A stretch of DNA of 64,000 bases from Bacteroidales bacterium (GTDB lineage Bacteria; Bacteroidota; Bacteroidia; Bacteroidales; VadinHA17): positions 1 through 64,000 of the forward strand of contig JALONV010000021.1 in assembly GCA_025454755.1 (NCBI GenBank). The letters run 5' to 3'. The notes beneath the pieces were generated by a model. The model did no database searches, was not told the DNA's origin, and saw only the letters and a list, made by a program, of their open reading frames with translations. Positions 14,107-56,544 of this stretch are shown here, piece after piece. A program made the position numbers and the translations under genes. Positions within the stretch are counted from its first letter, which is position 1. Every line of letters begins with the position of its first letter.

Positions 14107-14868
14107 TTATTTTCTTTGTTCATTTTTTGCTCGCCCAAAAAATAAACCAAAAAAGGGCGCCGGAAAAGCAAAGACAATAATTCTGAGGTTATTAAACAAC
14201 CACGAAGCCTTTAACTTGTGTCCGTTACCAGGTATCTCCACCCAAAAGTTTTCTCGTATACGAATATGATACTCAATGCTTAATTTGTTAAGATACTCCA
14301 GCCATTTGTCCCCCACAAACTCTCCGTCGTCCAGCAGGCATTCAATACTACCGGATCCGAACAGCCTGATGAAGAGTTCCATTGAATCTATCCGTTCCTG
14401 TATTGAAGAGTTCCCGAATTTGAGCATTATATGGAACAGAATAGGAAAGGCTACTCCCTTATATACGATGCCAAGAGTAAGGATGTTTATGTTCTTAGTA
14501 CCGAACTTCCAGTTAGTCCTGTCCAGAACCATCCTGTATGGTTGTTCATGGGGCAGCAAAGCAAATATAAATCTTGCGACCAGGTCTGAGTCAAATGAAT
14601 ACTCTGATATAAATCTCTGTATCCTTCGCAATGACGACTCAGCTTTAACACCTGAGTCAAATCCAAAGGCCAGCTTTTCGAAGCAGAGAGTCTGCACCTT
14701 GCATAACGCACTGATAAATAAGCCAAAGAACTTTATACGTGCCAGATTCATTTTGTCACCAAAGAACTCTTTCAACGTATCAGATAAAACTGTAACTTTG
14801 TTTTCAACCTTGATTTTCATAGTCGGAAATAGTATTGGTAGTACATTTTTCAACATATTGAATATCAA
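14107..14868 (-). mobile_element. IS4-like transposase fragment, C-terminus replaced by readthrough into the structured repeat
   Basis: LDRTNWKFG...NILTLGIVYKGVAFPILFHIMLKFGNSS...LLDDGEFVGDKWLEYL transposase core; tail IIVFAFPAPFFGLFFGRAKNEQRK is encoded by the repeat. Confidence 0.75.
14118..14182 (+). repeat. Structured dispersed element, copy C (truncated)
   Basis: GTTCATTTTTT-GCTCGCCC-AAAAAATAAAC-caaaaaa-GGGCG-CCGGAAAAGCAAAGACAATAATT, homologous to copy A at 54541. Confidence 0.75.
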
Positions 14869-15089
14869 GGTTTTATATTAATAAAAGAACGTGTATTTAT
14901 TAACAATATTAATATATAATATTAACAATCAACGCGTTAGCGTTTTTTGTCATGTACTAAATGCAAATTATATAAATATTTCGTTATATTTCTTCCAGTT
15001 TGTGAAGATAGGGTATTAAAATAGTGTCCAGACTTATAAGTTCAGCCCTTTCTGGAGCTGGCTCAATATAATTTTACATCAAAATCAAT

Positions 15090-52903: not shown

Positions 52904-53248
52904 TTGGTGTCTAATGTTTCATCCTCTTTTATTACTTTTGCGATTATGAAAGAAATGATAAAACCCATATTCAACAAACGCATTTTCTGGGATGTAAACT
53001 TTGAGCAGATCGACTACGATGCAAAAGCCAACTTTGTTATAGAGCGGGTTTTTGAACGTGGTGATGTTGAGGATATCCGTCAGTGCCGCAGGTATTATGG
53101 CGATGAAAAAGTGACTTCTGCCCTGTTACAGGCGAAGTACCTGCCGCTTCATACAATCCATTTTGCCAGTGCAATAATTGATAAGCCACTAAATGAATTC
53201 AGATGCTACATACTGAGGCAGTCGAATCCGGGACTTTTTCCTTACTGA
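52904..53248 (+). CDS. DUF6922-like putative antitoxin partner of AbiEii-type toxin
   Basis: RIFWDVNFEQIDYDAKANFVIERVFERGDVEDIRQCRRYYGDEKV, overlaps the next ORF; likely start at MKEMIK. Confidence 0.6.
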   Translation: MVSNVSSSFITFAIMKEMIKPIFNKRIFWDVNFEQIDYDAKANFVIERVFERGDVEDIRQCRRYYGDEKVTSALLQAKYLPLHTIHFASAIIDKPLNEFRCYILRQSNPGLFPY

Positions 53249-53829
53249 AAAAACTGATGGACCTGCCATCCCTCAAACCGTTCTCTTTGGTTGGAGGAAC
53301 AGCATTATCTCTGCGATATGGACATCGCAGTTCTATTGATCTTGATCTTTTTTCCCACGTAAAATTTGATCATCAGCAGATAATTAAGGAACTTGAAACA
53401 ACTTTTCAGGAAAGATTTGTTTACAAGCAACAACAGACAGAGTTTGGAATTTTTTGTTTTATTGATGACATAAAAGTTGATATTGTTTACTTTCCCCACC
53501 AGCCTATTGCAGAAATTGAAGAGGCCGATAATATCAGGATGTATAGCAGCGCTGATATTTCTGCAATGAAAATTCAGGCCATACTTGGCAGGGCTAAGAA
53601 AAAGGACTTCTGGGATTTATATGAATTGCTGCATCATTATCCTTTGCAGCAATTGATCGACTGGCATAAACAGAAATATCCAAGCCAGATGCTCGCAATA
53701 AGCATACCGCATGCTATCACATATTTTGCCGAAGCAGAGGATAGTGAAACACCGGTAAGTTTTAAAAATCAGACCTGGAACCAGATAAAAAAGGGGATTT
53801 CAAAGAGTGTCAGCGATTACCTGAGATAA
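53203..53829 (+). CDS. AbiEii/AbiGii-type nucleotidyltransferase toxin
   Basis: FSLVGGTALSLRYGHRSSIDLDLFSH; AMKIQAILGRAKKKDFWDLYELL. Confidence 0.88.
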   Translation: MLHTEAVESGTFSLLKKLMDLPSLKPFSLVGGTALSLRYGHRSSIDLDLFSHVKFDHQQIIKELETTFQERFVYKQQQTEFGIFCFIDDIKVDIVYFPHQPIAEIEEADNIRMYSSADISAMKIQAILGRAKKKDFWDLYELLHHYPLQQLIDWHKQKYPSQMLAISIPHAITYFAEAEDSETPVSFKNQTWNQIKKGISKSVSDYLR

Positions 53830-54156: not shown

Positions 54157-54537
54157 ATGAGATTAAAGTATGAACTGGAATATACTCTGAACTGCTCGCC
54201 TAAAGTCCTTTTTTCAAGGCTGAGTACTCCCGAAGGACTATGTGAGTGGTTTGCAGACGATGTCAGTGTTGATGGGGATATTTTTACTTTCTTGTGGAGC
54301 AAATCCGCGACCAGGGCAAGGCTGATAGCTATCAAGGAAAATAAGTTCGTCAGGTTTGAATGGTCTGATGATACCAATGAAGAATCTAACTATTTTGAGT
54401 TCCGCATCAATATAGAAGAATTAAGCGGAAGTCTCGCGCTTATCATAATCGATTTCTCAGAACCCGAAGATAAAGAAGATGCCATCTCACTGTGGGATGC
54501 ACAGATCACTGATCTGAAAAGAGTACTGGGCGTGTAA
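54157..54537 (+). CDS. START-like/AHSA1-type domain protein
   Basis: ELEYTLNCSPKVLFSRLSTPEGLCEWFADDVSVDGDIFTFLW. Confidence 0.8.
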   Translation: MRLKYELEYTLNCSPKVLFSRLSTPEGLCEWFADDVSVDGDIFTFLWSKSATRARLIAIKENKFVRFEWSDDTNEESNYFEFRINIEELSGSLALIIIDFSEPEDKEDAISLWDAQITDLKRVLGV

Positions 54538-54540
54538 TAT

Positions 54541-54667
54541 GTTCATTTTTTGCTCGCCCAAAAAATGAACCAAAAAAGGGCGCCGGAAACGCAAAGACAA
54601 TCATTTCCTTGCCCACATGCCCTCCCGAACAAGGGCCGGAAATGATTGCCTTTCCCGCCGTTTCCGG
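54541..54667 (+). repeat. Structured dispersed element, copy A (hairpin + pseudoknot + long hairpin)
   Basis: GTTCATTTTTT/AAAAAATGAAC stem; loop CGCCC complements GGGCG 54578-54582; CCGGAAACG/CGTTTCCGG and CAATCATTTCC/GGAAATGATTG. Confidence 0.85.
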
Positions 54668-54833
54668 TTTTTTGCTCTCGCGCCGTCTTATTTTAAATCC
54701 ATTATAAAGTTTTAATTCGAATACCCTATGTAATACCACTATTTCTGATTGTTACAAGTGGCGTATTAATTTTTCTGATATGCAGGAGCCCAATATTATC
54801 ACCAACCACAGAAATGGTATGAGTGGTGGCAAA

Positions 54834-54972
54834 CCGGAAATGGTGCGAACCACGGCCTTTTTGGTGGCGCCTTTAAGGCTTTGTGTAGCAGGCGGACAAA
54901 AAGACCGGGGTTGGCATTTCCGGCCTCCTTTTCTTTGGTTCATTTCTTTTGGAGGAGCAAAAGAAATGAACA
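54834..54972 (-). repeat. Structured dispersed element, copy B (covariant)
   Basis: minus strand GTTCATTTCTTTT/AAAAGAAATGAAC stem; loop CCTCC complements GGAGG; CCGGAAATG/CATTTCCGG. Confidence 0.85.
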
Positions 54973-54997
54973 ATATGAATTTTAGTAAAAATGAAGT

Positions 54998-55023: not shown

Positions 55024-56544
55024 GTGAAGAAGCTTGACAAATTTGTCGTAAAATCATTCATAGGCCCTCTGATACTCACATTTTTTATTGTGCTTATCAT
55101 CCTTCTTTTACAGTTCCTGTGGATGTATGTCGATGAACTTGCCGGGAAAGGACTTAACTTCCCCATCCTTGCAGAACTGCTCTTCCAGTTCTCCCTCTCT
55201 TTCGTCCCCACAGCACTGCCGCTGGCTATACTCCTCGCATCGCTTATGACTTTCGGCAATATGGGTGAATTCAGTGAACTGACTGCACTCAAATCCTCGG
55301 GTATTCCCCTGAAGCGCATAATGATGCCACTTATCGTGATAATCACCATCCTGGTCGGCGTATCATTCTTTTTTTCAAACTATGTTCTGCCCTACTCCAA
55401 CCAGCAGGCACGCTCGCTTCTGTATGACATCCGGCGCAAACGACCCGATATTAACCTTCAGGCAGGGACATTCAACAACGACATTGACGGTTTCAGCATT
55501 AAGGTCGGTTCCAAGGATCCCGGCACCAATCGCCTCGATAAGCTGATAATATACGATCACCGCAACAAGAGAACAAATCCTCCTGTTACAATCGCCGATT
55601 CAGGTTATATTAAAGTAACACCTGATGAATCGTCGATGATAATGGTGCTTTATAATGGCCATTCCTATTCCGAACTTGAAGAAAAGAATGTTATCCCTGC
55701 CGAAAAAAAATACCCTTCAAGGAAAGATTATTTCAAGGAACAGACTATCGTTCTTCCGCTTTCCGGATTCGACCTTGAAAGAAGCGGACACGAAATATTC
55801 AGTAAAATGTCATGGAGCATGAACATGGAACAGCTCGCATATTTTGTTGATTCACTTACTGAAGACTACACTCAAAGACAGGCAGGTCAATATAAGGAGT
55901 TTTTAACCAGCAAACTATATGTTGAACAAAAACAACAGGTTCCAGGCTACGCAAGGAGCGATGAAAAGATTAATTCCACATCCGATTCTCTGGTATTCAG
56001 TGCAAGAGCTATTTATGATACAATGCCTGTCGCCGAGAAGCTGGATATCCTGATAAAATCAATCGAGGGAATGACTGACGCGAACAGTTACATTGCAGGA
56101 AAGGTAGAAACAATGGAATCAGCCATCAGAAATATTGGAGCCTACGAGGTCTACTGGCATGAAAAACTGACCATTCCCTTTGCCTGCATCGTCTTCTTCC
56201 TTATAGGAGCCCCGCTGGGTGCAATAATCCGGAAAGGCGGACTTGGAACTCCTGCAGTCATTTCAATCTTTTTCTTTGTCGTATGGTATGTAATAACCAT
56301 CTCAGGGAAAAAACTTGTGGAAGAAGGCGTTATAGCTAGCATTGCAGGTATGTGGGCTTCATCCTTCCTTCTTCTTCCCGTTGGCATATTCCTGACATAC
56401 AAGGCTTCCAATGATTCGGTAATAATGAATATTGATACATATCTTGGGATTTTCCGCAAGATAAAGAACTATATATACAGGATCACTTTTCAGGGAAAAA
56501 GTAAAAATCCTGACAATAAAACACTGGATAATGACGAATTATAA
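55024..56544 (+). CDS. LptF/LptG family permease
   Basis: N-terminal [37 protein letters not shown]. Confidence 0.93.

Follow-up and report, generated by a model that had tools for sequence, protein, structure and literature searches.

Intergenic composite units with ends predicted to fold into triplex pseudoknots in Bacteroidota and Proteobacteria

The composite unit between the START_2 and LptF/LptG genes

In this study, we analysed a stretch of 64,000 nucleotides from a Bacteroidales genome, referred to here as the window, in which a unit of 431 bp lies between a START_2 domain gene and an LptF/LptG permease gene. A sequence-only reading had described two element copies, A and B, placed head-on between a START-like gene and lptF/G, and a third copy, C, elsewhere in the window. 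This gene setting was confirmed, and the quoted letters are all present at the positions claimed. However, while the sequences of A and B are real, they are not independent copies but the two ends of one composite unit. The features are listed below with their evidence in brackets.

54157..54537, plus strand: START_2 domain gene, directly left of the unit (context)
54541..54971, no strand assigned: composite unit of 431 bp, modules A (left) and B (right) facing inward (matching unit elsewhere in L085, facing-pair counts)
54541..54570, minus strand: module A hairpin, in plus-strand letters GTTCATTTTTTG-CTCGCC-CAAAAAATGAAC, arms at 54541-54552 and 54559-54570 (3'-terminal hairpin of the folded minus strand)
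54571..54577, minus strand: module A linker CAAAAAA (minus TTTTTTG), predicted third strand (T.A-T) over the hairpin (mirror rule)
54578..54582, minus strand: module A pseudoknot strand GGGCG (minus CGCCC), partner of the hairpin loop (covariation)
54583..54667, minus strand: module A body hairpin CCGGAAACG...CGTTTCCGG (folding and body covariation)
54668..54833, no strand assigned: inter-module spacer including conserved module tails (TTTGCYCWCGCGCC-like) (L085 alignment)
54834..54923, plus strand: module B body hairpin CCGGAAATGG...CATTTCCGG, the top strand being the folded strand (body covariation)
54924..54928, plus strand: module B pseudoknot strand CCTCC, partner of GGAGG in the hairpin loop (covariation)
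54929..54937, plus strand: module B predicted third strand TTTTCTTT and connecting G (T.A-T, one C+.G-C) (mirror rule, three-way changes, strand test)
54938..54971, plus strand: module B 3'-terminal hairpin GTTCATTTCTTTTG-GAGGAG-CAAAAGAAATGAAC (sequence, covariation)
55024..56544, plus strand: LptF/LptG permease gene, right of the unit (context)
14118..14159, quoted on the plus strand, folded strand minus: copy C, a truncated end with hairpin, all-T third strand and CGCCC, body lost (sequence)

Read on the minus strand, module B runs from its hairpin (54971-54938) through the linker (54937-54929) and GGAGG (54928-54924) to the body (54923-54834). An A/B pair with 80% identity over 54540-54973 is found at an unrelated place, with unrelated flanks, in another Bacteroidia genome (L085), and the alignment halts at both outer hairpins. 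Among the fetched loci, neighbouring ends face each other in 26 cases, with 4 direct and 3 back-to-back arrangements. The L085 alignment and the excess of facing pairs thus establish A and B as one two-module composite. Within a unit, the sequences of the ends often differ, as in GTTAC/CTTGAT opposite GTTCA/CTCCTC, and unit lengths range from 95 to 726 bp. The unit in the window begins 4 nt past the START stop codon, and a homologue of the AbiEii-type nucleotidyltransferase toxins (type IV toxin–antitoxin) is encoded nearby, at 53203-53829.

Only three ends are present in the window's genome, namely A, B and the truncated C. Copy C is cut inside its body, and a longer piece around it folds poorly. 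It adjoins a long minus-strand frame (14107-14868) without a Pfam match, in the stretch 14160-14950. Since a near-identical stretch lies beside a Y1-like gene in another contig (C157, L007), this neighbour is likely to be a repeated mobile element, to which copy C owes its truncation.

Fold of the ends, folded strand and mirror linker

A and B fold with energies 6-7 standard deviations better than dinucleotide shuffles. Using 51 distinct ends of equal length, we counted 93 double-change cells in the hairpin and pseudoknot as compared with 32.6 after shuffling, none of 500 shuffles reaching the observed value, whereas slid controls gave 3-17 such cells. Ten pairs have changed on both sides, and about 18% of the pseudoknot cells are unpaired. 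In an independent test, helices of at least 5 bp between loop and downstream strand were possible for 59% of the distinct loops, as against 16% of permuted ones (maximum 37%). The loop and clamp types involved are unrelated in sequence (CTCCTC/GGAGG, CTCGCC/GGGCG, CGCGGC/GGCCGC, CGTGGC/GGCCAC, CTTGAC/GTCAAG, CTTGAT/ATCAAG and AGGGG/CCCCT). Two helices in pseudoknot order therefore both covary, with controls far lower, and in the body hairpin of A/B type double changes that keep pairing occur at 14 of 34 pairs, all in the body (30 sequences). The covariation counts are uncorrected for phylogeny. The sequence-only reading had proposed a pseudoknot backed by covariation and three paired regions (hairpin, loop/downstream and long hairpin) that keep pairing as the sequence diverges, and covariation was indeed demonstrated in all three. 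Together with the Rfam result given below, this supports its suggestion of a dispersed element selected as an RNA or ssDNA fold. That reading was nevertheless incomplete, as it missed the third strand, the identity of the folding strand and the union of A and B as the ends of one unit.

It can be asked which of the two strands folds. When departures from Watson–Crick pairing were scored on the plus strand of 279 distinct ends, by a scheme that treats G.T and A.C alike, the clamp contained 125 A.C and 5 G.T and the pseudoknot 58 A.C and 11 G.T. Over all such departures, this amounts to 183 minus-strand and 16 plus-strand G.T. An A.C on the plus strand is a tolerated G.T wobble on the minus strand, which indicates that the minus strand folds. 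However, the A.C cells cluster at two clamp positions, so that the independent events are fewer than the counts. On the folded strand the order is body, CCTCC, TTTTCTTT and hairpin, and the third strand, pyrimidine when read on the minus strand, runs parallel to the purine strand. The T.A-T / C+.G-C motif is stable, and an all-T third strand is natural and an all-A one poor; that of copy A is of the all-T type on the minus strand. As far as sequence comparison can tell, the fold and its strand are well supported, and fold-level selection on one strand of the unit ends has been shown at this same level.

The A/G-rich linker noted earlier is present, but it is no mere spacer. Lying between the hairpin and the pseudoknot strand, it exactly mirrors the purine arm, and arm and linker are paired as AAAAGAAA / AAAGAAAA, AAAAAAGAAA / AAAGAAAAAA, AGAAAAAA / AAAAAAGA, GAAAGAAA / AAAGAAAG, AAGAGAAA / AAAGAGAA, AAAAGGAAA / AAAGGAAAA and GGAAAAA / AAAAAGG, among others. 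In 1.28 Mb scanned, exact mirrors were found for 30 asymmetric tract types at 140 loci, as compared with 8 tract types at 22 loci for direct repeats, and mirror controls gave 1 in reversed sequence and 0 in unrelated loci. Part of this material was found through patterns or a model containing the common linker, and the diversity of tracts therefore weighs more than the number of loci. Mirror and direct repeats could not be told apart in a scan that used the pseudoknot alone and short mirrors, and full-length asymmetric tracts were used instead; these rule out that the linker is a direct repeat. The third strand matches the stem pair by pair (T.A-T, C.G-C), with departures almost only at the edges, and in one fixed-length alignment three positions change jointly, from C.G.G to T.A.A once and from T.A.A to C.G.G in two ends. 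These data establish the mirror rule. Duplication produces direct repeats and palindromy inverted repeats. By the established rules of triplex formation, a stem with its mirror repeat next to it is the mark of Hoogsteen pairing in a triple helix. Since neither copying nor inversion can yield a mirror repeat, we take the linker to be a Hoogsteen third strand. All-A tracts likewise fit T.A-T, not A.A-T. In a single lineage (G863), a T interrupts the purine arm and the third strand has a G at this position, which we take to be the G.T-A triplet known from synthetic triplexes. Each end would thus be a pseudoknot of the H-type containing a T.A-T / C+.G-C triplex, the physical formation of which is inferred.

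One aspect of the geometry counts against this interpretation, as a loop of 3 nt has to span a 5-bp helix, which is short for A-form RNA. A loop of 2-3 nt over the deep groove would be sterically easy if instead the plus strand folded as an A-minor pseudoknot, with the A-rich linker in the minor groove and no Hoogsteen triplex. Frameshifting pseudoknots often have an A-rich loop 3 that crosses stem 1. However, a plus-strand fold would not lead one to expect the linker's G positions to mirror the G:C pairs of the stem, and the wobble asymmetry of 183 to 16 favours the other strand. We regard a plus-strand fold as scarcely tenable.

Distribution, mobility and search for a mobilising enzyme

The sequence-only reading had proposed a covariance-model search. 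Of 396 genomes sampled from the window's phylum, 41 gave a match to the end in such a search, as did 69 of the 299 sampled from the phylum of a Neisseriaceae bacterium (rough E-values in both cases). A genome-wide pattern scan, in which the 5' arm and the pseudoknot strand were left unspecified, showed that many Bacteroidota, and also several further groups, carry the element. The design recurs in many Bacteroidota and Proteobacteria, carriers including Chitinolyticbacter, Chitinilyticum, Fodinibius, Fulvivirga and Aestuariivivens. Chitinolyticbacter albus YIM B06366 and Aestuariivivens sediminicola MTV5-3 are examples of carriers in culture. An existing Rfam entry would have refuted the earlier reading, but the copies gave no Rfam match at the gathering threshold and none below E=0.26. 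No earlier description was found in the literature searched, from which subscription journals and ISfinder were excluded. A weak full-length match to whalefall-1 (24.8 bits, gathering 37) was observed at 2812-2856 of a goat rumen Bacteroidaceae locus (L263). It falls in the interior of a related unit, outside the ends. The whalefall-1 family carries a GGAGAG arm and, downstream of it, a GUGAGG stretch that might be a purine third strand of similar kind.

The copies of the G863 genome are 95-97% identical across about 320 bp and have unrelated flanks. As far as can be read from sequence alone, such displaced near-identical copies show that the unit is mobile. Within the window's genus, the START-lptF gap may contain a complete unit, only a solo end or a decayed unit, or may be empty, and the end modules found there differ between species. 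One old insertion with exchanged ends and repeated insertion are both possible explanations of this pattern. In the left end of the L085 unit (525-558) a B-type hairpin is fused to an A-type linker, and at another locus (L054) the hairpin loop is flipped. Both the chimeric and the flipped end have a broken pseudoknot, and their make-up suggests exchange or inversion of hairpins. They also hint at inversion of a palindrome, or at template switching from one end of a unit to the other.

Other arrangements were also observed. In two loci (L255 and L256), three to four solo ends follow one another as a direct array, at a spacing of 320-350 nt and all in one orientation, unlike the usual facing pairs. 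In Neisseriaceae JH1-16 (G207, loci L254-L261), an outer small hairpin, GTCGGTCTCGCCCGACTGGCGA / CGCCCCGCCGGGCGGGACCGGC, flanks the units. Beside them lie inverted pairs of a repeated TTCGGCCAACGTT motif, which might be a DNA uptake sequence.

The inverted ends, the lack of coding capacity and the displaced near-identical copies would also be expected of a classical MITE, whose terminal inverted repeats are cut as dsDNA by an IS DDE transposase of the same genome, with the folds serving something else. AATAT occurs on either side of the window unit (54536-54540 and 54972-54976) and is a possible target duplication there. This is however not general, as no consistent target duplication was found across units, which otherwise show just 2-3 nt matches. 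Furthermore, unit ends often differ yet share a single-strand fold, which a sequence-specific dsDNA transposase would not need, and the strand-specific wobbles and the mirror rule would be left unexplained. A classical MITE is thus, in our view, an improbable explanation.

It has been reported that unspecified atypical structures occur next to Bacteroidetes genes of TnpA subclass 2.6 (Quentin et al., 2018; PMC6006769), and the inverted, often heterologous intergenic dimers described here resemble BIMEs, which would suggest a REP/BIME family moved by a Y1 tyrosine transposase (RAYT). However, no end was found within 1.5 kb of any of 30 RAYT loci of the order, most of which carry subclass 2.6 motifs, or of 30 further Y1 loci (0/60 in total). 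In addition, no Y1 gene was found in five copy-rich genomes (G205, G207, G209, G212 and G174) with 7 to 31 copies each, and a Y1 transposase is therefore no necessary partner. The window's genome has only three Y1 genes of the Y..NQ..HH type, none near a copy, and the ends lack the GT[AG]G foot. By proximity and by absence from copy-rich genomes, RAYT/Y1 is ruled out as mobiliser, and the REP/BIME-RAYT reading is largely refuted, leaving it a very slim chance.

Other candidates were rejected as well. Reverse transcriptase was absent from 9 of 16 copy-rich genomes and cannot be a universal mobiliser. Wide facing pairs in Chitinolyticbacter, considered as an autonomous version, enclose ordinary genes and no transposase. 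A search for phage or plasmid carriage gave no match.

The main rival is a role of the 3' triplex in RNA stability. According to this model, the minus-strand transcript of a structured RNA module would end in a triplex that blocks 3' exonucleases and stabilises RNAs, dispersal being secondary; the composite being symmetric, transcripts from either side would end with a folded module. This would be consistent with the strand-specific wobble, with the position of the triplex at the 3' end of the fold, with the intergenic location of 36 of 37 units and with the start of the window unit so close to the START stop codon. However, the gene contexts of the units are near random (tandem 9, convergent 8, divergent 7) without preference for gene ends, although a 3'-UTR element would be expected to stay out of divergent gaps. 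In addition, the units of a single genus vary in both copy number and position, and there are no transcript data. The near-random contexts also speak against a gene 3'-end or terminator role. Although we consider the RNA-stability model unlikely, it retains more weight than the other alternatives.

The explanation we favour, and consider probable, is a non-autonomous dispersed insertion unit, the ends of which fold strand-specifically into triplex pseudoknots recognised in single-stranded form by unidentified machinery acting in trans. According to this proposal, each module would form, on one defined strand, a long body hairpin and then a short pseudoknot helix, with a T/C-rich third strand running along the 3'-terminal hairpin in its major groove (T.A-T / C+.G-C; U.A-U in RNA). 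The fold of the 3' strand at each end, as RNA or ssDNA, would then be recognised by the trans-acting machinery, which may move the unit into intergenic sites and swap end modules. Both this recognition step and the function of the triplex as the mobility signal are inferences. More tentatively, and with rather less conviction, we suggest that these units represent an undescribed, widespread class of mobile elements with triplex-pseudoknot ends, moved by an enzyme other than a Y1 transposase or reverse transcriptase, which reads shape, not sequence. Under such an enzyme, end sequences could drift freely while the triplex is kept.

Comparison with known systems

The telomerase RNA pseudoknot is of the H-type, with a pyrimidine-rich loop 1 and a U.A-U major-groove triplex, and PAN and MALAT1 carry 3' ENE triplexes; viral and MALAT1 ENE triplexes block 3' exonucleases. 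In their predicted fold, the unit ends share with the telomerase RNA pseudoknot and other H-type triplex pseudoknots the order of helix 2 strand, pyrimidine loop and hairpin, a third strand parallel to the purine strand and an unpaired clamp below the triplex, and with the PAN and MALAT1 ENEs the 3'-terminal position of the triplex. Unlike telomerase RNA and the ENEs, the unit is a dispersed bacterial genomic repeat with 6-10 consecutive triplets and an adjoining long body hairpin, and has no known RNA product or protein partner. Conserved natural nucleic-acid triple helices across phyla are very rare, and we know of none at the ends of dispersed bacterial repeats. Through the mirror rule, a triplex becomes recognisable from sequence and shows a three-way covariation of its own, and the evolved triplet codes of the unit ends form a natural library. 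The mobile element, defined by its shape, would be common to two large phyla, and the protein that reads it is a testable search target.

With regard to genomic repeats, the unit resembles the REP/BIME/REPIN elements with their RAYT (TnpA_REP) and the TIR/TIRYT families (PMC3733652), which are non-coding intergenic inverted dimers, often of two different modules and of low to moderate copy number. The criterion of inverted intergenic dimers is met by the unit. However, REP elements have a GT[AG]G tetranucleotide at the hairpin foot (PMC6006769), whereas the feet of the unit hairpins are GTTC, GTTA, GGTA, GATA and similar, with no GTAG or GTGG. The unit modules are also longer (130-200 nt versus 20-40), contain a predicted triplex pseudoknot, and neither need a Y1 gene nor have one nearby, and membership thus fails on the foot tetranucleotide and the Y1 partner. 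The dispersed CGTC palindromic repeats are likewise inverted dimers without a dedicated transposase in partly the same phyla but have 8-9 bp stems, 4-5 nt loops and a CGTC tag, with no pseudoknot or third strand described (PMC3733652). Like MITEs, the unit has terminal ends that are inverted in orientation and no coding capacity, at a size of 200-700 bp. Unlike those of MITEs, its ends, often different in sequence, are single-strand folds for which a sequence match is not needed; no cognate transposase has been identified, and membership fails on target duplication. By analogy, the architecture is that of an H-type triplex pseudoknot, and the genomic behaviour is like that of BIMEs or MITEs.
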